Source: Halorussus amylolyticus
GTDB lineage: Archaea > Halobacteriota > Halobacteria > Halobacteriales > Haladaptataceae
DNA: 64,000 nucleotides
Assembly: GCF_004143485.2 (NCBI RefSeq)
Contig: NZ_ML974130.1
Span: 532,363 to 596,362 of the forward strand
Direction: 5' to 3'
The notes beneath the pieces were generated by a model that saw only the letters and a program-made list of their open reading frames with translations, was not told the origin of the DNA and did not search any database. The position numbers and the translations under genes are program-made. Shown here one piece after another: positions 8,166 through 62,098 of this stretch (position 1 is the stretch's first letter; every line of letters starts with the position of its first letter).

Positions 8166-8558
8166 TTACGTGCTCTTGTCCATGTTGTGCCGAACTCGGT
8201 CGAGGACTTCCCCGTGTTCGTGTTGCGGGCTGAACAGCACGAAATCCGTGTCTTCGTCGGCTCGGAGGGTGTGTCCGGGCGGCCAGTAGAACAGGTCTCC
8301 GGTCTCGTCCACTTCGTCGGTCCCGTCGGTGTACGTGACCGTGAGCGCGCCGTCCACCACGTACCCCCAGTGCGGCGACTGACACCGGTCGTCTTTCAGC
8401 CCTTCGAGCAGCGGCGTGAGGTCGGTTCCCTCCGTGAGCGTGAAGTATTCGGCTCCGAACGTTCCGTAGTTCGTCGCATCGCCGAAATCCGTCTGTTGGC
8501 GCGCGACGGCGTTCGGGCTGTCGATTCTGATTGGAATGTCTTGTTTCGCTTGCTTCAT
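8166..8558 (-). CDS. Cupin-domain protein
   Basis: A 130-residue single-domain cupin. The first motif region SPHWGYVVDGALTVTY (about residues 61-76) and the second region GDLFYWPPGHTLRADEDTDFVLFSP give the usual beta-barrel with a likely metal site using the histidines of HWG and GH. A short polar N terminus precedes the fold. No signal peptide. It may be co-transcribed with the luciferase-like gene that follows it. Function beyond the fold cannot be assigned. Confidence 0.82.
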   Translation of the reverse strand: MKQAKQDIPIRIDSPNAVARQQTDFGDATNYGTFGAEYFTLTEGTDLTPLLEGLKDDRCQSPHWGYVVDGALTVTYTDGTDEVDETGDLFYWPPGHTLRADEDTDFVLFSPQHEHGEVLDRVRHNMDKST

Positions 8559-8930
8559 CGGTCTCGCCTCTCGGCGAGAAGCGATACGAGTCCGAGGGTT
8601 AGGTAGGCATCTCGTGGTGATTTATCAGCGACTGACTGCGTCGCGGACGGTGAACGCTGGTCACTCTGTGCGGGTCGGATTCGTTTCTGACCGTGTAAAA
8701 CGAAATGCGGGAAAGGTAGTGGGCCGACGCAGATGTCGAACTCGGGAAGACGGTCCGGGATGCTCGCTCCGGAAGAGCAAACTCTTCCGTGCCCTCGTTC
8801 GCTTCGCTCACGAGGACTTCGCTGCGCTTCCGGGCGTGCGACTTCCCTGCTCGAATCTGCTTGGCGTCACGATTCCCGCTCTCGGAACGCCTCGCTATCG
8901 CTCGGCGTTCGTTGAGTGCGGGAAAGGTAG
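8559..8930. other. Gene-free region with tRNA 3'-end duplication
   Basis: No supported gene in 372 bp. It holds the promoter side of the cupin gene, a 29-nt copy of the tRNA-Pro 3' end and flank (8706-8734), and a 7-bp hairpin (8771-8777 with 8782-8788). Short frames here lack haloarchaeal protein character. Confidence 0.6.
8706..8734. repeat. Partial copy of the tRNA-Pro 3' end plus flank (candidate att scar)
   Basis: These 29 bases match 8917-8945 at 28 of 29 positions (A at 8726 where the other copy has G at 8937). The shared block covers the last 15 nt of the tRNA, including the discriminator, and 14 nt beyond its 3' end. With one inserted base the match extends a further eight bases into the T-loop. 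This is the pattern left by integration at a tRNA gene. Confidence 0.65.
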
Positions 8931-9003
8931 TGGGCCGGCGCAGATTCGAACTGCGGTTACGGCCACCCGAAGGCCGAAGGATACCAAGCTACCCCACCGG
9001 CCC
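8931..9003 (-). tRNA. tRNA-Pro(CGG)
   Basis: On the minus strand the 73-nt sequence folds as a standard tRNA. The seven-pair acceptor GGGCCGG/CCGGCCC carries discriminator A, and there is a D-arm containing TAGCTTGGTA. The anticodon stem is CGGCC/GGCCG with loop TTCGGGT (anticodon CGG, G at 37), and the T-arm is CGCAG-TTCGAAT-CTGCG. CCA is not encoded. Anticodon CGG reads proline codon CCG. A TATA-like CCATTAAAGG lies about 29 bp upstream. Confidence 0.95.
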
Positions 9004-9027
9004 GCATATCGAACGTAGCGACGACTG

Positions 9028-9037
9028 CCTTTAATGG
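9028..9037 (-). promoter_or_regulatory. TATA box of tRNA-Pro
   Basis: The minus strand reads CCATTAAAGG, centred about 29 bp before the first base of the tRNA at 9003. Confidence 0.6.
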
Positions 9038-9045
9038 TTCCGAAA

Positions 9046-9498
9046 TTATGCGCCGTCGCCGACCGCGGATTCGACGTACGTCACCGCCTCTCGCGGGGTC
9101 TCGACCACTTCGACGCCCGGCGCGTCGTGGGTCCCGAGACCGGCCACCGGGCGCTCGAACACGCCCGCGAAGCCGAGTTCCGAGAGCGTGCCCGGTCCGC
9201 CGTCGATGGCGATTGCGGCGTCGCTGTTCAGCACGACCAGCCCGTTCCGGGCGTGGCCGAGTCCGGTCGCGACGGCGACATCGACGTGGGGGTTCGCGAC
9301 TCGGCGGTCTTCGCCGGGGAGGATGCCGATGGTTCGGCCGCCCGCCTCGCTCGCGCCGCGACAGGCGGCTTCCATCACGCCGCCGAGACCGCCGCAGACG
9401 ACCTCGTGGCCGCGTTCGGCGAGCAGTCGGCCGACTTCTTGAGCGACCGCGGCTTCTTCGTCGGTGACGGTTCCGCCGCCGATGACGCTGACTCGCAT
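9046..9498 (-). CDS. LOG-family / TIGR00725-like nucleotide-binding protein
   Basis: A 150-residue Rossmann-like protein starting MRVSVIGGG. It has the GGLGGVMEAACRGA segment and the signature GGPGTLSELGF near residue 108, the GGxGTxxE motif of LOG/YvdD-like proteins. Plant and bacterial LOG proteins release cytokinin bases from nucleotides, but most archaeal relatives are uncharacterised, so only the fold and ligand class are called. I chose the ATG at 9498. The frame continues upstream through a tandem repeat array, which is not coding. The protein ends 43 bp from the tRNA gene. Confidence 0.83.
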   Translation of the reverse strand: MRVSVIGGGTVTDEEAAVAQEVGRLLAERGHEVVCGGLGGVMEAACRGASEAGGRTIGILPGEDRRVANPHVDVAVATGLGHARNGLVVLNSDAAIAIDGGPGTLSELGFAGVFERPVAGLGTHDAPGVEVVETPREAVTYVESAVGDGA

Positions 9499-10781: not shown

Positions 10782-11945
10782 ATGAAGCTCGCAATGATAG
10801 GCTTTGGGCAGGCTGGCGGGAAGATAGTGGATAGATTCGTCGAGTACGACCGGCGAATCGGGAGCGACGTCGTCCGGTCGGCCATCGCGGTCAACACCGC
10901 GAAGGCCGACCTCGGCGGACTCGACAACGTTCCCGAGCGCAACCGCGTGCTCATCGGACAGGCCCGCGTGAAGGGCCACGGTGTGGGCGCGGACAACGAA
11001 CTCGGCGCGGAAATCGCCGAGGAGGACATCGGCGAGGTACAGGGGGCCATCGACGAGGTTCCGGTCCACGAAATCGACGCGTTCCTCATCGTCGCGGGGA
11101 TGGGCGGCGGGACGGGGTCGGGCGGCGCGCCCGTCCTCGCCAAGCATCTCAAGCGCATCTACACCGAACCGGTGTACGGACTCGGCATCCTTCCGGCCCA
11201 AGACGAGGGCGGCATCTACACGCTCAACGCCGCGCGGTCGTTCAAGACGTTCGTGGACGAGGTGGACAATCTCCTCGTGTTCGACAACGACGCGTGGCGC
11301 GAGACGGGCGAGTCGGTCCGGGGCGGCTACGACCGAATCAACGAGGAAATCGTCCGGCGGTTCGGCGTGCTGTTCGCGGCGGGAGAGGTCCAGCAGGGCC
11401 AACAGGTCGCAGAGAGCGTGGTGGATTCGAGCGAAATCATCAACACGCTCGCGTGCGGCGGCGTCTCGACCATCGGCTACGCGACCGAGACGGTCGGAGG
11501 CACCGACGGCGGCCTCCTCGGCCGATTCAAAGACGACGAGGTGGACGCGACCCAGACCACGAACCGAATCACGAGCCTCGTCCGGAAGGCGGCGCTCGGC
11601 CGCCTCACCCTTCCCTGCGACGTCGAGAGCACCGAGCGGTCGCTCGTGGTCACGAGCGGGCCGCCGAAGTACCTGAATCGCAAAGGCGTCGAGCGCGGGC
11701 GGAAGTGGCTCGAAGACGAGACGCACTCGATGGAGGTCCGGGGCGGCGACTACCCGCTTCGGAGCACCGACCACGTGGGCGCGGTGACACTCCTGTCGGG
11801 TGTGACGGAAGTCCCGCGCATCAAAGAGCTACAGGGCGTTGCGGTCGAGACCCAGGACAACATCGAGACCATCCGCGAGGAGAGCGACGACAATCTGCAG
11901 AATCTGGTACAGGACGATGCCGGAGAGTTGGAGGCGCTGTTCTGA
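10782..11945 (+). CDS. cetZ: CetZ-family tubulin-like GTPase
   Basis: A 387-residue tubulin/FtsZ-superfamily GTPase. The N-terminal [19 protein letters not shown] nucleotide-binding loop and the tubulin signature GGGTGSG at residues 108-114 are intact. [14 protein letters not shown] near 38 and the [12 protein letters not shown] segment are typical of the archaeal CetZ branch rather than FtsZ1 or FtsZ2. CetZ1 of Haloferax controls rod shape and motility. It forms cytoskeletal filaments in the cytoplasm. An acidic C-terminal tail ([19 protein letters not shown]) may bind partners. Which CetZ paralogue this is needs a phylogeny. Confidence 0.92.
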
Positions 11946-48406: not shown

Positions 48407-51400
48407 TCACTCCCGACGAGCGAACGCCATGACCGCGACGGCGAGACCGACGAGGGTGACGCCCGCGTCGAAGCCGGGAACCGTCCCGTTCGTTGGCTCG
48501 TCGCTCAGATCGTCGTCCGAGTCCGAACCGGTCGCGTTTCCGTCGCCCCCATCGTTTTGACTGGTCTCGCGGGTTTCGTTGGTCTCGCCGCGCTCGTGGG
48601 TCTCGTTGTTTTCGGTCGTCTCGCGACTTTCGGTGGTCTGCGTGGTGTCGTCTTCGTTTCCGTCGCTCCCGTCGCCGTCGTCCTCGCTTTCGTCGCCGTC
48701 GCGTTCGTCCTCGCGCTCTTCGAGAACGTCGATTTCGAGGGTCCGCCCGTCGAGTTCGAGCGTGTGGGTCCCTGGCTTCTCGGGTTCGGCGGTGAACGTC
48801 ATCGTCTCGGTCGTACCGCCCGCTACCATCGGCGTCCGGCGGTCGATTCGGTCGCCGTCGAGGAACAGTTCGAACTCCGCGCCGCCGGTCTGGTCGCCGG
48901 TGTTTTCGACGGTCGCGGTCACGGTTACCGACTCGCCGACCGTCACTTCGGTCGGGTCGGCCGAGAACTCGACGACCGATAGACTCGCTGGCTCGGCTGG
49001 CGAGCCGGAGTTGGGTCGCCGAACCGTCACGTTCGCCGTCTCGGAGTCGTCGGGCGAGAACACGCCGTGCTCGTAGGTGCCGTACGTCGCGTTCTCGGCG
49101 ACTTTGGAGACGAACTCGACGTAACGCTCGTCGCCAGCGTCGAGCGAGACGGTCGTGTTGGCCTCGGACGCGTCGTCGATTCGGTACTCGATGCGCGCGG
49201 TCTCGCTCACGTCGCCAACGTTCTCGACCGTCGCGTTCAGCGTGACGTTGTCGCCGCGTTTGGCGGTGTCGGGGGCATCGAGGTTCGTCATCGCGACGAA
49301 CGCGTCGCGTTCGAGCGCGAAGTCGGTCCCAGTGACCGACGCCGCTGGACCGACAGTGACGCCGGTCGTCTCGTCTTCGATGAACTCGGTCGCGTTCGCC
49401 GCCAGCGCGTAGTCGTCGCCGTGCGCTACCGTTTCGAATCGGTAGTCTCCATCGTCGTCGGTCGTCATCGAGTCGAGCGTCTCGCTCGCGTTCGACAGCG
49501 TCACCGTCGCGTTCTCGACCGGCGTCTGGCCGTCGAGTTCGGTGACGGTTCCCGAGACCGACCCGGGTTCGCCTTCGAGCGCGAGGTCGGCGGTCTCGTC
49601 CTCGCCGTCGCCGAGCGAGACGACCGTGGCGTTCGTCTCATAGTCCGCGATAGTCGCCGAGAGGTCGTAGTCCGTGCCGGTTCCGGGGATATTTTCGACG
49701 ACGTACTCGCCGTCCGCGTCGGTCGTCGCGGTGTACGTTCGCGACCCGTCTTCGACGCTCACGGTCGCGCCGTCGATTTCGTCGCCGGTCACCGCGTCGG
49801 TCACCGTACCGGTGAGTTCGGCGTTGCCCGAGACGACGACGCTTTCGGTGGCGCTCGCGCCGTCGCCGACGGTCACGCGCGTCTCGGCCAGTTCGTAGCC
49901 GTCCTCGTCGATTGCCACGTCGTACTCGTGGCCCCCCGCGACGGCTTCGAACCGGTAGTCGCCGTCCGCGTCCGTCGTCGCGTCGTACGTGTCGCCGCCG
50001 TGTTCGGCCGTCACGGCGAGGCCTTCGACGGGTGCTCCGAGAACGTCGTCGGTCACCGTTCCGGCGAGCGTCGCGTTCCCCGATAGCGTGTGGGTCCGAC
50101 TGGCGGTTTCGCCGGGACTCAGCGACACGTCCGCGAGGTCGCTCCCGTCGTAGCCGTCGGCTTCGATGACGTAGTCGTAGGCGTGGCCGCCGGGGAGCGC
50201 GGGGATGGAGACGGTCCCCGAACTGTCGGCCGAGTAGGAATCCAACGCGACGCCGAACGAGTCGCTCTCGACCGACACCTCCGCGTCGGCTATCTCTCCG
50301 CCCGACTCGGCGTCGGTGAGCGTGAGGTCGTCGCTCGCATCGCCGCTGAGTTCGAAGTCCGTGCCCGTGGCGTCCTCGCCGTCGCCCACGCCGACGGTAT
50401 CGGAGTCAGACTCCCATCCCGTCGTCTCGACTCCGACGTCGTAGGACTCGGCTTGCGGGTCGGCGAGTCCGGCGACCGTGAGGGTGTACTCGCCGTTCTC
50501 GTCGGTCTCGACGGTGTACGTCCCCGCGTCGCCTTCGGCCGTCACCGTTACGTCTTCGAGTTCGGTTCCGAAGACTTCGTCCGTGACCGTGCCGCTGATG
50601 GTGGCCGTCCCCGTCAGGTCGGCGTCGAGTCCGTGAGTCGCGCCGTCCGAAACTCGCTCGTCGGCGAACGTGGTCGCGTCGTAGCCGTCCGCTTCGACGC
50701 TCACGTCGTAGTCGTCGCCGCCGGGAACGCCATCGACGGTGTACGACCCGTCGGCGTCGGTCGTCGCGGTGTACTCGTCGCCGCCGATTTCGGCGGTCAC
50801 GGTCGCGCCCTCGACTCCCGCCCCGCTGTCGGCGTCGATGATTCGGCCGGAAATCTCGGCGTTGCCCGTCAGTTTCCAGCTTCGACTATTCGTTTCGCCC
50901 GGGTCCAGCGACGACGTGTGTTCGAAGTCGTCGTAGCCCGCGGCCGAGTACACGAAGTCGTAGGTGTACCCGCCCGGAACGCTCGTCTCCACGAAGCCGT
51001 TCTGGTCGGTCGCGGACACGTCCTCGGCGACGCCGAACACGTTGCTTTCGACGGTCACGGTCGCGTCCTCGATGGGTTCGTCGGTCACGGCGTCGCTGAC
51101 CGACATGGCTTCCTCTTTCGCGTCCCCGGTGATGTCGAGGTCGAAGTCGGTCGCGTCGTCGCCGTCGCCGAGCGTCGCGGTCGTCGCCGAGTTCGCGCCC
51201 CAGCCCTCGGGGGAGACGCCCACCGTGTACGCCTCGTCTGTTCCGGGGACGGAGACGCTGTACGTTCCGTCTTTGCTTGTCTCGGCAGTGTACGTCGCGT
51301 CGCTGTTCTCGACCGATACCGAGATGCCGGGGACGCCCGTCTCGAACGTCGTGTCGGAAATTGTCCCGCTCACCGACGCGCTCCCGTCGAGTCCGACGTC

Positions 51401-54325
51401 GAGGGTCTCGTCGTCGCTTCCGACGGTCACGGAGTCGGTGTCGCTCTCGTAGCCGTCGCGCTCGACGGTCACGTCGTAGTCGGTGTTGCCCTCGACCGCG
51501 TCGAACGCGTAGGAGCCGTCACCGCTCGTTTGGGTGTCTGCGACGGTCCCGTCGTCGGTTTCGAGCGTGACGGTCGCGCCGTCGAGCGGGTCGCCCGTCG
51601 CGGCGTCGGTGACGGTGCCATCGACGTTCGGTCGCCTCACGTCGATGGTCACGGTCGCGTCGTCGTGTCCGGCGTCGTTTTCGAGTCGGTAATCGACTTC
51701 GTACGTGCCGTCCTCGGTGGGTCCGGCGAGTTCGAGCGAACCGTCGGCGGCGAGCGTCAGGCTCCCGCCTGCGAAGTCTGCGGTGTCGCCCGCGTCGTAC
51801 TCGGTGGCGTCGCCTGCGAGGTCGCCGCCGCCGAAGCTCGCGACGCTCGCCTCCGGGTCGCCGAGGTCGTCGGCTCCGTTGCCGTGGTCTTCGACCACGC
51901 TCTCGCCGAGGGTGCCGCCGTATCCGACCGCAAAGCCGTCGGCGTCGTTCGCGGTCGGCGCGATTCCGAGTTCCTCGAACGAGAGGTCGTCGAAGTACAC
52001 CTCGGCGTAGCTGCCGTCCTCTTGGTGGGCGGTGATTCGAACGACGGCGTCAACCGCGTTCTCGGGGGCGGCCGAGGTGTCGCCGAACTCGTCGAACTCG
52101 GTGTCCGAGTCCGAGCGCAGGTCGGTGAGCGACGTGCCCGCGCCGGAGACGACTGACCCCGACTCGTCGAGGTACTCGACTTCGACCTGGCCGTAGTCCG
52201 CGGTCGAGAGGTCGTCGTCGGTGCCGACGAATCCGCCGACTTCGTACGACCGGCCCGACCGTATCGGGACGGTCTGTTCGAGGCTCGCGTAGTCGCCGCT
52301 CCCCGTGGTGTCGCCGAACGCCTCGGTTCCGCTCGGTGCGCTCTGGTCCCCGTCGGTCGAGGGGTCGAGACACCCCATCGTGGACTCGCCGGGCGAGGCG
52401 TCGGTCCAGCCGTCGGCGCCGTCCTCGCACGAGGGGTCGTCGAGCGTGTGGTCTCGTACCCGAATCTCGACCGTCGCGTCGTCGGACGCGTCCTCGTTCT
52501 CGATGCGGTAATCGAACGCGTAGGTGCCGGTTTCGGTGGGGTCGGTGAGGCTGAACGAGCCGTCGGCGTTCACTTCGAGCGTGCCGCCAGCGAGGTCGGC
52601 GGTGTCGCCCGCGTCGTTACTCGTCACGTCGCCCGCGAGGTCGCCGCCGCCGAAGCTCGCGAGGTCGGCCTTCGGAAAGCCGCGCTCGTCGGACTGGTCG
52701 CCGAGGTCGAACACCGACTCGTCGGGCGCGAGCGTCTTCTCGATTCCGACCTCCAGCCCATCGACGTCGTAGGCGTTCACCGGTTCGTCTGCGGCGGTTC
52801 CGGGGGTGAACGCGAGGTCGTCGAAGTAGACGCCCGCGAAGTCGTCGTTCTCGACGTGGGCCATCCGGAGGCGGACGACGGCTTTGTGCGCGTCGGTCGG
52901 GGCCACCGACGAATCCGCGAATCTATCGAACTCGCTTGCCGAGTCCGACTGGAGGTTCGAGACGGTGACGCCCTCGCCCGAGATGACGTTGCCCCCCTCG
53001 TCGAGGTACTCGACTTCGACCTCGCCGTAGTCGTCTCCGGGGTCGGTTCCGACGAGTCCCTCGATGGAGTACTCCTCGTCGGGGACGACCCACACTTCCT
53101 GTTCGGCGACCACGTCGCCGGTCCCGGCCGACACCGCGAACGCGCTGTCGCCGACCGCGGCCGAGTGGTCGGTGTCGTCGGTGGTGTCCAAATCGAGACA
53201 CGTCATGTCCCCCTGCGTTCCGGTCCATCCCGGCGGAACCTCGGTTCCGTCGGTCTCCTCGCACGCCGGATTTTCGAGTTCGTGGTCGCCGACCTCGATT
53301 GTCACCGTGGCCTCGTCCGACTGGCCGTCATCCGTCTCGATGCGGTAGTCGAACGCGTACGTGCCGGTCTCGGTCGGGTCGGTGAGGCTGAACGACCCGT
53401 CGGCGTTCACTTCGAGCGTGCCGCCCGCGAGGTCGGCGGTATCGCCCGCGTCGTACTCGGTGGCGTCGCCTGCGAGGTCGCCGCCGCCGAAGCTCGCGAG
53501 GTCGGCGGGTTCGCTGCCAAGGTCGTCTTCGTCCTCGGCGTAGTCGTCGTCGAACAGCGTCCACGACGGGTCGAGGGTCTGTTCGACGCCCGTCTCGACG
53601 CCGCTGACCGGGAACGCAGTCACCCCGCTGGTGACCTCGCGGAACTCGACCTCGTTGAGGTAGGCGTCCGAGTAGCTGGTGTCGTCGATATCGACGAGGG
53701 TGACCCGGACGACGGCGGTGGCCGCGTCCTGCGGAGCCTCGGTCGTCCCCTCGAACGACTCGTACGTTCCCCCCGCTGGCTTGGATTCCACCGTGGTACC
53801 GCTTCCCGACAGGACGGAGCCACTGCTATCTCGGTACTCGACCTCGATCTCGACGTAATCGCTGGTGCCAGTGTCCCTCCCGGCCTCGCCGCCGACGTTG
53901 TACTCCGTCTCGCCGGTCACGTCGACCTCTTGCTCGACGATGCCGTCGGAGTCATCACCGGAGAAATCGGCAAAGGAGTCCGACCCGTCGGGTGAAGTCA
54001 AATCGTCGATAGTCGATGGGTCCGTACACTGGACATTGCTCGACACCGCCGTCCACCCGTCCGGTGGGGTGCCGCTGCCGTCGTCGCTGTTGCAGTCAGG
54101 GTTCGTGAGCAGATTCGGCCCCTCCTGCTGGGCACTCATCGCCGAAATCGAGCGGACTTCGTGCGTGCGCTCGCCCGCTCCGCCAGCGTTCTCTCCGTCA
54201 TCGAGAGCGTGCGCCGGTGCGTCGAGTCCGGCGACACTGCCCGAGGCCGCGAGCATCCATGCGCCGAGAACCACGAGGCACACACTCACCACCGAACGAG
54301 TCGTGTGCCCAGACCGGGAAATCAT
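48407..54325 (-). CDS. Giant PGF-CTERM surface protein with repeated adhesin-like and carboxypeptidase-regulatory domains
   Basis: A 1,972-residue secreted protein. A signal peptide (SVVSVCLVVLGAWMLAAS) is followed by three copies of a module of about 280 residues (starting near 70, 350 and 625). Each pairs a lectin-like beta domain with a cadherin-like stretch containing LASFGGGDLAGD and GTLEVNADGSFSLTDPTETG; a fourth, shorter cadherin-like copy follows. Nine carboxypeptidase-regulatory-like repeats (about 900-1670, e.g. ISGTVTDEVFGTELEDVTVT) come next, then two CARDB-like domains (near 1680 and 1780). An acidic Thr-rich linker leads to PGFDAGVTLVGLAVAVMAF and a short Arg tail. The PGF-CTERM tail marks it for archaeosortase A processing and lipid attachment. 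Likely roles are adhesion or S-layer contact. ATG 54325 chosen over TTG 54337. Confidence 0.9.
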   Translation of the reverse strand: MISRSGHTTRSVVSVCLVVLGAWMLAASGSVAGLDAPAHALDDGENAGGAGERTHEVRSISAMSAQQEGPNLLTNPDCNSDDGSGTPPDGWTAVSSNVQCTDPSTIDDLTSPDGSDSFADFSGDDSDGIVEQEVDVTGETEYNVGGEAGRDTGTSDYVEIEVEYRDSSGSVLSGSGTTVESKPAGGTYESFEGTTEAPQDAATAVVRVTLVDIDDTSYSDAYLNEVEFREVTSGVTAFPVSGVETGVEQTLDPSWTLFDDDYAEDEDDLGSEPADLASFGGGDLAGDATEYDAGDTADLAGGTLEVNADGSFSLTDPTETGTYAFDYRIETDDGQSDEATVTIEVGDHELENPACEETDGTEVPPGWTGTQGDMTCLDLDTTDDTDHSAAVGDSAFAVSAGTGDVVAEQEVWVVPDEEYSIEGLVGTDPGDDYGEVEVEYLDEGGNVISGEGVTVSNLQSDSASEFDRFADSSVAPTDAHKAVVRLRMAHVENDDFAGVYFDDLAFTPGTAADEPVNAYDVDGLEVGIEKTLAPDESVFDLGDQSDERGFPKADLASFGGGDLAGDVTSNDAGDTADLAGGTLEVNADGSFSLTDPTETGTYAFDYRIENEDASDDATVEIRVRDHTLDDPSCEDGADGWTDASPGESTMGCLDPSTDGDQSAPSGTEAFGDTTGSGDYASLEQTVPIRSGRSYEVGGFVGTDDDLSTADYGQVEVEYLDESGSVVSGAGTSLTDLRSDSDTEFDEFGDTSAAPENAVDAVVRITAHQEDGSYAEVYFDDLSFEELGIAPTANDADGFAVGYGGTLGESVVEDHGNGADDLGDPEASVASFGGGDLAGDATEYDAGDTADFAGGSLTLAADGSLELAGPTEDGTYEVDYRLENDAGHDDATVTIDVRRPNVDGTVTDAATGDPLDGATVTLETDDGTVADTQTSGDGSYAFDAVEGNTDYDVTVERDGYESDTDSVTVGSDDETLDVGLDGSASVSGTISDTTFETGVPGISVSVENSDATYTAETSKDGTYSVSVPGTDEAYTVGVSPEGWGANSATTATLGDGDDATDFDLDITGDAKEEAMSVSDAVTDEPIEDATVTVESNVFGVAEDVSATDQNGFVETSVPGGYTYDFVYSAAGYDDFEHTSSLDPGETNSRSWKLTGNAEISGRIIDADSGAGVEGATVTAEIGGDEYTATTDADGSYTVDGVPGGDDYDVSVEADGYDATTFADERVSDGATHGLDADLTGTATISGTVTDEVFGTELEDVTVTAEGDAGTYTVETDENGEYTLTVAGLADPQAESYDVGVETTGWESDSDTVGVGDGEDATGTDFELSGDASDDLTLTDAESGGEIADAEVSVESDSFGVALDSYSADSSGTVSIPALPGGHAYDYVIEADGYDGSDLADVSLSPGETASRTHTLSGNATLAGTVTDDVLGAPVEGLAVTAEHGGDTYDATTDADGDYRFEAVAGGHEYDVAIDEDGYELAETRVTVGDGASATESVVVSGNAELTGTVTDAVTGDEIDGATVSVEDGSRTYTATTDADGEYVVENIPGTGTDYDLSATIADYETNATVVSLGDGEDETADLALEGEPGSVSGTVTELDGQTPVENATVTLSNASETLDSMTTDDDGDYRFETVAHGDDYALAANATEFIEDETTGVTVGPAASVTGTDFALERDAFVAMTNLDAPDTAKRGDNVTLNATVENVGDVSETARIEYRIDDASEANTTVSLDAGDERYVEFVSKVAENATYGTYEHGVFSPDDSETANVTVRRPNSGSPAEPASLSVVEFSADPTEVTVGESVTVTATVENTGDQTGGAEFELFLDGDRIDRRTPMVAGGTTETMTFTAEPEKPGTHTLELDGRTLEIDVLEEREDERDGDESEDDGDGSDGNEDDTTQTTESRETTENNETHERGETNETRETSQNDGGDGNATGSDSDDDLSDEPTNGTVPGFDAGVTLVGLAVAVMAFARRE

Positions 54326-54466
54326 AACTCTCTCCAATCAGTCGGGGAGTTTATTTCTTTCTAATAATAGATGTACCATCCTTGAACAGCCGTTTCATCA
54401 GTGAACAGCCGTGTCGGTCGAACGACCGATACTCGGTACTGATTCGAACGCGCTGGTCCCCGTCAA

Positions 54467-58045: not shown

Positions 58046-58549
58046 ATGGCGAACTCGCCCTCCACCGCCGACGAACAGTGCCGACAATCCCGGCGTCTCC
58101 CTCGACGGACCGTCCTGACCGGTCTCGCCGCCGTCGGAACTGCGGGGACGGCCGGATGTGTGGACCTCATCGACGAGGTGGCCGACCGCGCCCTCGAAGA
58201 CGTGAACCTCTTCAACGAGTCCAGCGAGTCGCTCGAAGGCACCATCGACATCACCGGTCCCGACGGGTCTTCGGTCCTGTCCGAACGGTTCGAACTACAC
58301 GCTCAGACCGAAGACGAACCCAACGAAGACGCGACCGGCGTGTACGCGGACGTGTGGCAGGCTACTGGCACCTACGAGACCAGCGTCGAACTGGACGACG
58401 GCTTCGAGGTCAGCGGCGACTCGCGCGCCGAACGGTCAGTGAGCATCGAAAACCCCGACGAGCAGATGCTCGCGGTCGTGTTCGGGGCCGAGGACGAGGA
58501 AGACGGAATCCTCCTCGCGGTCGGCGAAAGTCTCAGCGAATTTCGGTAG
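58046..58549 (+). CDS. Tat-exported lipoprotein of unknown function
   Basis: A 167-residue protein. The N terminus has a twin-arginine signal (RRLPRRTVLTGLAAVG) and a lipobox ending TAGC at cysteine 38, so it should be lipid-anchored outside the membrane. The mature part is acidic and beta-rich: EGTIDITGPDGSSVLSERFEL, YADVWQATGTYETSVELDDGFE and SIENPDEQMLAVVFG resemble a small Ig-like or PPC-like sandwich. No enzyme motif. The family recurs as haloarchaeal lipoproteins of unknown role. The next gene starts 86 bp later. Confidence 0.8.
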   Translation: MANSPSTADEQCRQSRRLPRRTVLTGLAAVGTAGTAGCVDLIDEVADRALEDVNLFNESSESLEGTIDITGPDGSSVLSERFELHAQTEDEPNEDATGVYADVWQATGTYETSVELDDGFEVSGDSRAERSVSIENPDEQMLAVVFGAEDEEDGILLAVGESLSEFR

Positions 58550-58635: not shown

Positions 58636-61002
58636 ATGACCGACGTACGCGAGGCGACCGACGACCTCCTCGCGGAGAAATCCGACTTCGAACCCCACCT
58701 CCGAGACCTCCTCGAAGTTGACGAGCGAACTGACGGATGGACGTTCGACGACGTGCCCTTCGATTCGGGCACTTTCGGCGAACTCGTCTCTCGCGATATC
58801 GTCGTCGAGCGCGACGGGAAGTACGAAGTCGCCGACCCGGAGGCGGTTCGAGCGAGCCTCGACGGCGACCCGGCCGACGGCGATTCGCCGTCTCGGTCGC
58901 TTCCCTCGCTCTCGCTCCCCTCGGTTTCTCGGGCGAACGCGGCCGCACTTGCGGCCGCGCTCGCGTTCGTCGCGGCGGTGCGCACGTACTTTCTCACCCA
59001 CGTGTTCCGCTCCGACGGCGTCTTGCTCTCTTCGAACGACCCGTACTACTACCGCTACTGGGTCGAACAGCTCTCGGCGGAGGCGGTCGGTGTCTTCGAC
59101 TTCAGCGTGCTCTCTGGCCTTCCGAGTCCGGTCGCGAACGGCGAACCGCTGACGGTCGGTACGCTCTGGTGGGTCACGAACCTGCTCGGCGGGGCCGACG
59201 CCTCGGGGGCGGTGCTGGCGTGGTATCCGGTCGTCTCGGCGCTCGTCGTCGCGGTTCTCACCTACGCGATAGCCAAGCGACTGACCGACGACCCCCGGGT
59301 CGCCGTCGCGTCGGTCCTGTTTCTCGCGGTGCTTCCGGCGTTCGCCTACCGGACCGGTCTCGGGTTCGCCGACCACCACGCCTTCGACTACCCGTGGCTC
59401 GCGCTCACCGCGCTCGCGCTCGTCTGGCTCGCGGACGTCGGCCACCCCGAACTCCGCGACCCCCGGACGTGGGTCGTCTCGGGCGTCCTCGGATTCGCGG
59501 TCGCCGGACAGGTGCTGGCGTGGGAGGCGGGACCGCTCCTCATCGGCGCGCTCGGCGTGTACGTCGCGGTCCGAACCGCGGCCGACGTTCGCGCCGAGCG
59601 GTCGTCGCTCGCCGGAAACGCTCCGATAGTCGCGGGGCTGGCGTTCGCCTCTCTCCTTTCGCACCTCGCGCACACCGGCTTCGGGTGGCACGAGGGCGTG
59701 GTCGCGTACTCGCCCGCGCTGTTGCTCGTCGGCGTCGTTGGAGTGTCGCTTGTCGGGGAAGCCATTCACCGCGCCCGAATGCCTGCGTTCGTTCTCGGGA
59801 CTACCGAGGTCGCAGGCGCGCTCGGCGGTCTCGCGCTCCTGCAGGTGTTTCTCCCGTCGTACGCGAGCACACTGTTTACGAGACTCGACGTTCTCCTCTT
59901 TAGAACTGGTCCCGCCGAAACCAACTCGATGTTCGCCGGTGGGGCGTTGGGGCCGCTTCTCGGTCCGCTGTTCGAACTCGGATTCGCGTGGCTGCTCGCG
60001 GTTCCGATGCTGCTGTACGCCGGGTGGCGTGCCTACCGGACCAACCGCGCGACGTGGCTCGTAGTCGTGACCTACGGCTGGTACTTCCTCGCACTCGCGA
60101 CACTCCAGCGCCGGTTCGTCGGCGAACTCTCGCCGTTCGTGGCGATACTCGTCGGGTGGGCGTTCGTCGCGTTCGCCGCGAAAATCGATGTGGCCGTGCC
60201 GCCCGCGTTCGACCGCGACGAGTCCACCGCGCCCGGTCGAACTGACTCTCCCGACCGGCGTTCGCTCCGCATGCCGAGTCGAAACACCGTCACCGTCCTC
60301 GGCGTCCTCTTCCTGCTCGTGACGAGCGCGGGCGCGGTCCAGACCGCGGTCCGCCACGAGCAGGTCAAAATCGTGGGCGAGACGTACGAGTCGGCCCAGT
60401 GGATGGACGGCTACGCCGACCAGCAGGAGTGGGAGTACCCCGAGGACTACGTGCTGAGCAAGTGGGGCCGGAATCGGATGTACAACTACCACGTGAACGG
60501 CGAATCGCGGTCCTACGTGTTCGCCGACCAGAACTACGAGCGATTCCTCGCGGCCAACGATTCGGAAGCGGAGTATCAGCGGTTACGAGATAGAGTCGGG
60601 TTCGTCGTCACGCGCGACCTCACGCTTCCCGGACAGGCCCGCGACGACATCATGTACACTCGACTCCACCAGCGGTTCGGAAGCGAGGCCGACGACGGGT
60701 CGTCCGGCGTCGGCCACTTCCGCGCGGTGTACGCCAGCGACACGGGCGCGACCAAGGTGTTCACGCTCGTTCCCGGCGCGAACGTCACCGGCACCGCGTC
60801 GGCGGGCGAATCCGTGACGGTCGAACGGCGCGTCGAAATCGAGGGCGCGGAGTTCGACTATCGGCGCACGGTCGAAGCCGGTGACGACGGGAACTTCTCC
60901 GTGACCGTTGCTCACCCCGGTACGTACTCGGTCGGTAACGAAACCGTGGATGTGTCCGAGGATGCGGTTCGAAACGGCGGCAACGTCACGGTCGGCGCGT
61001 AG
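58636..61002 (+). CDS. STT3/AglB-like membrane protein lacking the WWDYG motif
   Basis: A 788-residue protein. A soluble N-terminal domain of about 100 residues (a possible winged helix, DDVPFDSGTFGELVSRDIV) precedes about eleven helices and an extracytoplasmic C-terminal part. STT3-like motifs are SNDPYYYRYW near residue 133 (the DxD-type loop) and GFADHHAFDYPW near 244. Where oligosaccharyltransferases carry WWDYG, this protein has LSKWGRNRMYNYHVNG near 607. The C-terminal 70 residues form a beta domain. It may be a divergent glycosyltransferase rather than the main N-glycosylation enzyme AglB. Its neighbour is a surface lipoprotein. Confidence 0.82.
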   Translation: MTDVREATDDLLAEKSDFEPHLRDLLEVDERTDGWTFDDVPFDSGTFGELVSRDIVVERDGKYEVADPEAVRASLDGDPADGDSPSRSLPSLSLPSVSRANAAALAAALAFVAAVRTYFLTHVFRSDGVLLSSNDPYYYRYWVEQLSAEAVGVFDFSVLSGLPSPVANGEPLTVGTLWWVTNLLGGADASGAVLAWYPVVSALVVAVLTYAIAKRLTDDPRVAVASVLFLAVLPAFAYRTGLGFADHHAFDYPWLALTALALVWLADVGHPELRDPRTWVVSGVLGFAVAGQVLAWEAGPLLIGALGVYVAVRTAADVRAERSSLAGNAPIVAGLAFASLLSHLAHTGFGWHEGVVAYSPALLLVGVVGVSLVGEAIHRARMPAFVLGTTEVAGALGGLALLQVFLPSYASTLFTRLDVLLFRTGPAETNSMFAGGALGPLLGPLFELGFAWLLAVPMLLYAGWRAYRTNRATWLVVVTYGWYFLALATLQRRFVGELSPFVAILVGWAFVAFAAKIDVAVPPAFDRDESTAPGRTDSPDRRSLRMPSRNTVTVLGVLFLLVTSAGAVQTAVRHEQVKIVGETYESAQWMDGYADQQEWEYPEDYVLSKWGRNRMYNYHVNGESRSYVFADQNYERFLAANDSEAEYQRLRDRVGFVVTRDLTLPGQARDDIMYTRLHQRFGSEADDGSSGVGHFRAVYASDTGATKVFTLVPGANVTGTASAGESVTVERRVEIEGAEFDYRRTVEAGDDGNFSVTVAHPGTYSVGNETVDVSEDAVRNGGNVTVGA

Positions 61003-61050: not shown

Positions 61051-61902
61051 TTACCGCGTCACTGCACGGTCGGCCCCGCGACCGCCGCGCGAATCGGTTT
61101 TTTCCCGGAGTTCGTTGTAGAACGCGACGGCGTACACCGCGAGCAGCATGCCGATGGTCGCAGTGGAGACCACGTAGACGGCGGTGACGCCGACCAGCAG
61201 TGCCGGTGAGAGTTGGGTCGTCGTCGCAGTTGCGAGGTCACCGGTCGGTTGGGGAGTCGCTTGGAGGAGTGCTGACGGAATCGAGATGACGAGACCGAAC
61301 GTACCGCCGACGATCATGACGAGGACGGTGTAGCCGAGCGTGCTCACGAAGTTATCGCGGACGAGCGAGACGCTACCTTTCAGTCCTCCGACAGCGCCCG
61401 CGTCGTTCAGGACGATTTCCTGCCCGTAGAACTGGGTGAACAGCACGAGGGCCGCGAACGCGAGACCGATGAGGACGAACACGCCGAGCATCACGAAGAT
61501 GCCGCCGGACTCGGCGGCACCGGCGAGTCCGACCGAGACGCCGGTCACGATGAACCCCAGGACGGCGAGGACGCCGAACGCCATGAACACCGCCAGGAGG
61601 AGCAGGTACGCGCCGAGTATCGACAGGTAGTTTCGCTTGCCCGACTCGACGAACGTCCCGAGGTGCGTGCGACCCTTCAGCGCTTCGTCGGCGACGGCGA
61701 CGATGCCAGCGTAGATGAAGGGTGTGGCGAGCAACGTGACGACCATGAACGCGAGCGAGACCATGAGCGTCGCGGCCGGACTGATTGTCTGTGCGAGTAG
61801 CGGAGGCGTCTGGAGGAGTCCGAATACGGCGAACACCCCGACGAGAATCGGGTTTCGAAGTATTGCGGAGGGGACCTTTTTGAATGCTGTGAATACAGCC
61901 AT
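61051..61902 (-). CDS. Polytopic membrane protein of unknown function
   Basis: A 283-residue protein with about six hydrophobic helices (near 22-40, 45-70, 98-120, 130-160, 185-215 and 238-262). An amphipathic start MAVFTAFKKVPSAILRNPIL is followed by a loop GTFVESGKRNYLSILGAYLL, a pattern shared by glycerophosphodiester-phosphodiesterase-type membrane domains and haloarchaeal domain-of-unknown-function proteins. No catalytic residues recognised. The ATG at 61902 has a TATA-like AAATATTA about 32 bp upstream. Convergent with the STT3-like gene; a 6-bp ACACAC/GTGTGT hairpin lies between them at 61008-61024. Confidence 0.8.
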   Translation of the reverse strand: MAVFTAFKKVPSAILRNPILVGVFAVFGLLQTPPLLAQTISPAATLMVSLAFMVVTLLATPFIYAGIVAVADEALKGRTHLGTFVESGKRNYLSILGAYLLLLAVFMAFGVLAVLGFIVTGVSVGLAGAAESGGIFVMLGVFVLIGLAFAALVLFTQFYGQEIVLNDAGAVGGLKGSVSLVRDNFVSTLGYTVLVMIVGGTFGLVISIPSALLQATPQPTGDLATATTTQLSPALLVGVTAVYVVSTATIGMLLAVYAVAFYNELREKTDSRGGRGADRAVTR

Positions 61903-62098
61903 GTATTTGAGTTGAGACACTATCGGGATAATATTTGGGGTTCGGGAAGCGCGAGAGCGGTGCCGGACCCGAAAAAAGCGAGGTTCCGGGGTCGAGATTC
62001 CCGCCCAGCAGGTCGTGTTCGCGTGTGGTCCCTTGCGTCGAAATCTCCCCGAAAAATCGCCAAATCCGAGACCTACGTCGAGATGCCGCCCAGACCGA

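Follow-up and report, generated by a model that had tools for sequence, protein, structure and literature searches.

What does a protein of the oligosaccharyltransferase (OST) family do once the motif with which such enzymes read their acceptor has been exchanged for another? The question is raised by a gene in a 64,000-nucleotide stretch of the Halorussus amylolyticus genome (the window), whose product, here termed STT3x, resembles the archaeal OST AglB and has a different sequence in place of WWDYG (Table 1). Its membrane part matches the Pfam family STT3 (PF02516) with 29.1 bits over residues 108–308, above the cut-off of 24.5, and TIGR04154 (archaeo_STT3, the haloarchaeal AglB) with 145.1 bits over residues 104–606, below the 450-bit cut-off of that family. 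The 3.78-Mb genome holds two STT3 matches, STT3x and, on contig C4 (G000:C4), a canonical AglB that bears the motif as MSWWDYGHW; STT3x is therefore a paralogue and not the AglB of this genome, and the idea that it replaces a missing AglB is ruled out.

Table 1. Coordinates of STT3x, its domains and motifs in the window, and of a protein with a similar N-terminal domain elsewhere in the genome.
Feature	Position	Strand	Details
STT3x gene, STT3-like GT-C protein without WWDYG	58636..61002	+	open frame, 788 aa, stop within coordinates
Soluble N-terminal domain, aa 1-80	58636..58875	+	helices then two-strand wing, winged-helix-like order (secondary structure of AlphaFold2 model)
Membrane GT-C domain, aa 99-577	58930..60366	+	Pfam STT3 PF02516, TIGR04154, model helices
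C-terminal beta domain AglB_L1, aa 701-788	60736..60999	+	Pfam PF18079; match to 3wai
S608-G622, WWDYG replacement SKWGRNRMYNYHVNG	60457..60501	+	family form SxWGxNRxYNYFVNG; family counts and hhalign alignment
N134-D135-P136-Y137, first catalytic Asp motif	59035..59046	+	aligns with NDPW of A. fulgidus AglB (3waj/5gmy)
D246-H247-H248, second metal/catalytic motif	59371..59379	+	family conservation
E428, counterpart of AglB external-loop Glu (TIXE/SVSE)	59917..59919	+	aligned with IAEVYPF of A. fulgidus AglB
R493 in QRRF stretch	60112..60114	+	aligned with QNRF of A. fulgidus AglB
EMC3/TMCO1-type membrane protein with STT3x-like N-terminal domain	L003:1426-2349 (G000:C3, about 8471-9394)		

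The AlphaFold2 model of STT3x, built on a 79-sequence alignment, has a pLDDT of 92.8 and a pTM of 0.86. Among the matches listed by Foldseek and VIA-align, A. fulgidus AglB is the solved structure nearest to the model, ahead of yeast and human STT3, PglB, ArnT and DPY19; absence from the VIA-align list carries no weight. The comparison with AglB that the earlier note had proposed puts AglB first among the PDB matches of the model, with a Z of 37.8 to 3waj and an rmsd of 3.8 over 595 residues, whereas DPY19, ArnT and PMT score lower (Z 23.8, 24.6 and 21.9, respectively). Residues 628–788 of the model match 3wai, the C-terminal domain of AfAglB-L, with a Z of 13.1 and an rmsd of 2.2 over 153 residues. 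The β domain that the earlier note took for an addition is the AglB_L1 domain (PF18079, 33.9 bits at residues 714–763), a peripheral domain present in long-form AglBs; the soluble domain at the N terminus is a real addition, as the note had claimed. With AglB (A. fulgidus AglB-L, 3waj, 5gmy and 7e9s; haloarchaeal TIGR04154), STT3x shares the fold, the catalytic Asp/His/Glu and Arg positions and the AglB_L1 domain; unlike AglB, it lacks WWDYG and the conserved DxxK, carries the extra N-terminal domain and has a shorter C-terminal part. PglB and eukaryotic STT3 have the STT3 fold in common with it (best Z 26.9 and 33.1), but their sequon pocket is replaced in STT3x. Judged by the predicted fold and the catalytic residues, STT3x belongs to the STT3 superfamily.

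At the site where AglB has S-W-W-D-Y-G, STT3x has S-K-W-G-R-N-R-M-Y-N. Aligned by hhalign with nine haloarchaeal AglBs (chosen for having WWDYG, so that its presence in all nine cannot be taken as independent evidence), the 79-sequence STT3x profile gives a probability of 99.95 and an E value of 2.3e-38. EYPED-YVLS-K-W-G-R-N of STT3x pairs with DYPEGAYGVMS-W-W-D-Y-G of AglB in this profile–profile alignment, in which the second Trp is retained and the first Trp and D-Y-G are exchanged. WWDYG occurs in none of the 114 proteins of the STT3x family (in the same analysis, five AglB ORFs were counted with one regular expression), and 109 of the 114 fit the pattern SxW[GSDPA]x[NSTQ]Rx[YFHD]N, which rules out a sequencing or frame error as the origin of the motif. 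Nor does the motif look like chance: among 106 unique relatives, W610, R614 and N617 are each Trp, Arg and Asn in 105, S608 is Ser in 102, Y616 Tyr in 98 and N613 Asn in 94. The DxxK of AglB has no conserved counterpart in the STT3x family: of the 106 relatives, no more than 35 have Asp at D661, and no conserved Lys follows.

The catalytic positions are kept. N134, D135, Y137, H247 and R493 are each invariant in the 106 relatives and E428 is kept in 104; D246 is Asp in 85 and Glu in 21, and H248 is His in 79, Arg in 21, Gln in 5 and Asn in 1. A PDB profile search aligns the kept positions with the matching stretches of A. fulgidus AglB, and we take their roles to be those known for OSTs, namely metal binding, glycan-lipid binding and catalysis. 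The reading of the earlier note thus stands up in several respects: the DPYYY and ADHH motifs are present (NDPYYY at N134-D135-P-Y, and D246-H247-H248), WWDYG is replaced at the aligned site, and the survey of haloarchaeal paralogues that it called for finds the new motif conserved. As far as the sequences tell, WWDYG has not moved elsewhere in these proteins and the other catalytic residues have not been lost. In one sub-family (L092 and L096–L120; 12 of the 79 aligned sequences), E246-H-R248-x-x-Q251 replaces D-H-H-x-x-D; the three changes coincide in 12 of 12 members, which may point to a different metal site in this sub-family.

As neither WWDYG nor a conserved DxxK is found in the family, we do not file STT3x as an AglB or a canonical OST. 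Most likely, it would work like an OST with a different acceptor rule. The C-mannosyltransferase DPY19 (7zlh), which shares the STT3-like fold with STT3x at a Z of 23.8 and only 10% identity in the structural alignment, uses Dol-P-Man and Trp and so has another acceptor chemistry; by analogy, it may serve as an earlier example of the STT3 fold with another acceptor.

The STT3x family is widespread in Halobacteria. A search of 391 genomes of the class finds matches in 251 at E ≤ 1e-5, a count to which AglB contributes weak cross-matches. At E ≤ 1e-30, matches occur in 47 of 99 genomes in one family and in 43 of 81 in another. When 392 genomes of the phylum were searched with the STT3x profile, scores above 700 bits were confined, among the matches listed, to genomes of the same order; those listed outside it score no higher than 136 bits and align chiefly over the membrane part, as AglBs would.

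In the 64-kb window we find none of the polysaccharide genes typical of the neighbourhoods of its relatives, and no agl cluster. STT3x is preceded by a short lipoprotein-like frame (58046-58549, +) and followed by a DUF7847 membrane protein (61051-61920, −); 4.3 kb away lies the gene of a surface protein of about 1970 residues (48407-54337, −), which contains repeats and carries a PGF motif at its C terminus, a possible surface substrate. The earlier note had named a lipoprotein and not the agl cluster as the context and so treated it as unrelated to glycosylation, which is true of this genome and fails for most relatives, whose STT3x genes lie in polysaccharide clusters. We sampled 48 stretches (47 relatives and the window), with genes called by a simple codon-score caller and examples checked against Pfam; several closely related Haloarcula are included, and the counts ignore kinship. 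A polyprenyl-phosphate sugar-1-phosphate transferase (PGT, PF02397) is found near STT3x in 32 of the 48; the sample also has RmlA-type nucleotidyltransferases (26/48), epimerases of one class (19/48), GlmS (14/48), UDP-sugar dehydrogenases (13/48 and 7/48) and a BacA/UppP-type diphosphatase (6/48). A start enzyme of the PGT type together with UppP fits a pyrophosphate-linked carrier and suggests a Dol-PP donor for STT3x. An S-layer gene is also among the neighbours in some genomes. Other recurrent neighbours are a DUF4330 protein (PF14221), present in 11 of the 48 (at L162:7396-8625 and ten further loci), and two small membrane proteins that flank STT3x in 11 of 48 (L047:10366-10839, 10832-11326 and relatives), one with no Pfam match in the homologue scanned and one YdjM-like below the cut-off.

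With regard to the acceptor, we compared the N termini of proteins with an S-layer-type signal (TIGR04207) between genomes with and without STT3x, in three sets of 40, 56 and 56 genomes. An N-terminal Asn pattern was first noticed post hoc in set 1. Its strict form, fixed before the data of set 2, is found there in 8/28 STT3x-bearing versus 2/27 STT3x-free genomes (P = 0.044), and a looser form that was not fixed beforehand in 14/28 versus 3/27 (P = 0.0019). The pattern was widened after set 2 to allow Asn directly after A-x-A and, as A-x-A-(x)-N, fixed before set 3, in which the best hit carries it in 21/28 versus 5/26 genomes (P = 4.5e-5) and any fetched hit in 21/28 versus 6/26. The best hit per genome is our main count, chosen after the hit list of set 3 and before most of its sequences were fetched; 70 of the 100 hits of that set were read, the other 30 being lower-ranked hits of genomes already represented. 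Counted in this way, set 1 gives 17/19 versus 1/20 and set 2 gives 17/28 versus 2/27. Over all sets, Asn stands at mature residue ~1–2 in 55 of 75 genomes with STT3x and in 8 of 73 without it (P = 2.5e-15, a pooled value that takes in sets 1 and 2 under the widened pattern); one STT3x-bearing genome (G009) and three STT3x-free genomes (G044, G347 and G358) have no TIGR04207 hit.

Signal cleavage in these counts is inferred and not all TIGR04207 proteins are S-layer proteins; the genomes are not independent, and kinship is controlled at the genus level only, where the 22 genera that hold both states give a Mantel–Haenszel P of 1.7e-7 and a within-genus permutation P of 5e-5, the floor of that test. 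The excess of Asn after A-x-A is limited to offsets 1–3, with frequencies of 0.15, 0.33 and 0.18 in STT3x-bearing genomes against 0.01, 0.04 and 0.06 in the others. The association has failures on both sides, with 20 of 75 STT3x-bearing genomes lacking the pattern and 8 of 73 STT3x-free genomes having it; the window's own genome is one of the 20 (AAAVSAND, with Asn at mature +4). In STT3x-bearing genomes, 55 of 68 N-terminal Asn residues lie outside N-X-S/T and 13 inside. Of 73 genomes, 7 have an S-layer-type gene no more than 10 kb from STT3x, where 0.61 would be expected, and 20 have one no more than 60 kb away, where 3.6 would be expected, as counted with the main STT3x copy, the fetched hits and rounded genome sizes.

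The S-layer protein of Halobacterium was the first glycoprotein described outside eukaryotes, and its long, sequon-independent glycan at Asn-2 was found in the 1980s–1990s; to our knowledge, the enzyme for the first asparagines of this protein has been missing for decades. One genome of our collection, G018, is that of Hbt. salinarum, as all 6000 bases compared from contig C8 align with the DSM 3754 plasmid NZ_CP038632.1 at 100.0% and 94% of a stretch of contig C10 matches other Hbt. salinarum plasmids at 100%; stretches of C12 and C15 match Halobacterium plasmids over insertion sequences only. This strain, other than that of the classic mutagenesis, has STT3x (G018:C1:932302-934620), and its S-layer gene (C1:926446-928983; TIGR04216, 1181 bits) lies 3.3 kb upstream on the same strand. 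If it is cut as known for Halobacterium, the mature S-layer protein presumably begins with ANADQV, with Asn-2 and no Ser/Thr at +2. According to a review (PMC2952790), Hbt. salinarum has two N-glycans. One of them, the repeating-unit glycan on S-layer Asn-2, is built on dolichyl pyrophosphate, bacitracin stops its transfer, and glycosylation of Asn-2 tolerates exchange of Ser-4 for Val, Leu or Asn; the review also states that there was no suitable explanation for Asn-2 and that only one OST gene had been found. Excerpts of a 2019 paper still call the processing of this glycan by AglB 'still not clear' (PMC6591318). The enzyme sought would have to do without Ser/Thr at +2 and to use a Dol-PP donor; both would fit STT3x and its neighbours, and we propose that STT3x may be this enzyme. 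In the open-access literature we found no paper that assigns the Asn-2 enzyme to a gene or that names the STT3x family for it. Agl23 of Haloarcula hispanica was considered as an STT3x and ruled out, since the consulted part of the source describes it as a flippase (PMC11182771). For the Haloarcula AepG cluster, HAH_1202 is described as the AglB homologue, with no mention of a second STT3-like gene in the excerpt concerned (PMC9943897).

We therefore favour, with a probability of roughly 0.6, the reading that STT3x is a sequon-independent OST that puts a Dol-PP-linked polysaccharide on the N-terminal Asn of S-layer proteins. It would be a divergent haloarchaeal paralogue of AglB and a second OST-like enzyme, in which the STT3 fold, the metal/catalytic residues and those on the lipid-phosphate side are retained, with the Ser/Thr-reading WWDYG and DxxK exchanged for a conserved pocket of its own, SxWGxNRxYN. 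A WbaP-type sugar-1-phosphate transferase would start the polysaccharide or oligosaccharide on dolichyl pyrophosphate, STT3x would move it onto Asn at mature residue ~1–2 of the secreted S-layer glycoprotein with no need of N-X-S/T, and a BacA/UppP-type phosphatase would recycle the dolichyl pyrophosphate. The enzyme sought for the repeating-unit glycan on Asn-2 in Halobacterium would then be STT3x. The earlier note had suggested a different sugar or a different acceptor sequon, a reading that is partly supported: the data favour a changed acceptor, with the sequon-reading motifs lost and N-terminal Asn outside N-X-S/T, and the gene context points to a different donor, from polysaccharide machinery of the Dol-PP type.

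Fold, residues, family motif, neighbourhood and the co-occurrence with N-terminal Asn are what we observe; transferase activity, Dol-PP donor and acceptor are what we infer. The strong polysaccharide-gene neighbourhood could also suit a ligase that transfers a surface polysaccharide to lipid, to another surface protein or to a growing EPS chain, with the N-terminal Asn as a correlated trait. The GT-C relative ArnT, a fold match at Z 24.6, acts on lipids, and only 7 of 73 genomes have an S-layer-type gene within 10 kb. We nonetheless regard such a ligase as unlikely, since the Asn excess is confined to offsets 1–3 and holds within genera, and since the structure is closest to OSTs that modify proteins. 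An ordinary OST that still requires N-X-S/T and reads Ser/Thr with a different pocket would account for the STT3 fold, the kept catalytic residues and the 13 of 68 N-terminal Asn residues in sequons, but the 55 of 68 with no Ser/Thr at +2 and the absence of both WWDYG and the conserved DxxK make it very improbable.

A similar N-terminal domain precedes a protein of the EMC3/TMCO1 type (PF01956, 155.9 bits) in the same genome, with 34% identity over ~60 residues (E 7e-4); frames of ~300 residues that match the STT3x-like N-terminal domain occur in several other genomes too. Proteins of this type function at the translocon or take part in membrane insertion. The likeness would suit a protein without catalytic activity that partners or regulates AglB or the translocon, as would the sub-family with E-H-R in place of D-H-H. 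A dead enzyme would not need D135 (106/106), E428 (104/106) and R493 (106/106), however, and we give this idea hardly any weight. Just as little speaks, on balance, for STT3x as the maker of the disaccharides that are O-linked to the Thr-rich segment of S-layer proteins; we know of no enzyme that makes these. The acceptor pocket is changed, and the haloarchaeal O-glycan assembly genes are said, in the part of the source consulted, to be unidentified (PMC10384203). On the other side, the excerpt on Haloarcula hispanica names Dol-P hexoses as donors for N- and O-glycans (PMC11182771), not a carrier started by a PGT, and the link to N-terminal Asn would be left unexplained.

Under the favoured reading, a sequon-independent OST, the N-terminal domain invites speculation: if it docks to the same partner as that of the EMC3/TMCO1-type protein, STT3x could act on the new N terminus while it emerges. 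We hold it possible, at somewhat short of an even chance, that haloarchaea have a second class of OST that reads a free N-terminal region and not a sequon, transfers a Dol-PP polysaccharide, may sit at the translocon by way of its EMC3-type N-terminal domain and acts once the signal peptide is cut, which would explain the Asn-2 glycan of Halobacterium. The STT3x family offers a concrete gene candidate for this glycan, close to the S-layer gene in Hbt. salinarum itself, and a sequon-independent OST, if true, would also be useful in practice for coupling polysaccharides to protein termini of choice.

Three of six STT3x relatives on plasmids bear the NCBI label 'STT3 domain-containing protein', with which no function is given. 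The relatives on the Haladaptatus plasmids H3 (NZ_CP085329.1) and H4 (NZ_CP085338.1) carry the annotation LamG-like jellyroll protein, a hint at a C-terminal fusion. In another genome, a second STT3x gene, broken into fragments (G067:C1:214016-214499), is located between the two S-layer-type genes.
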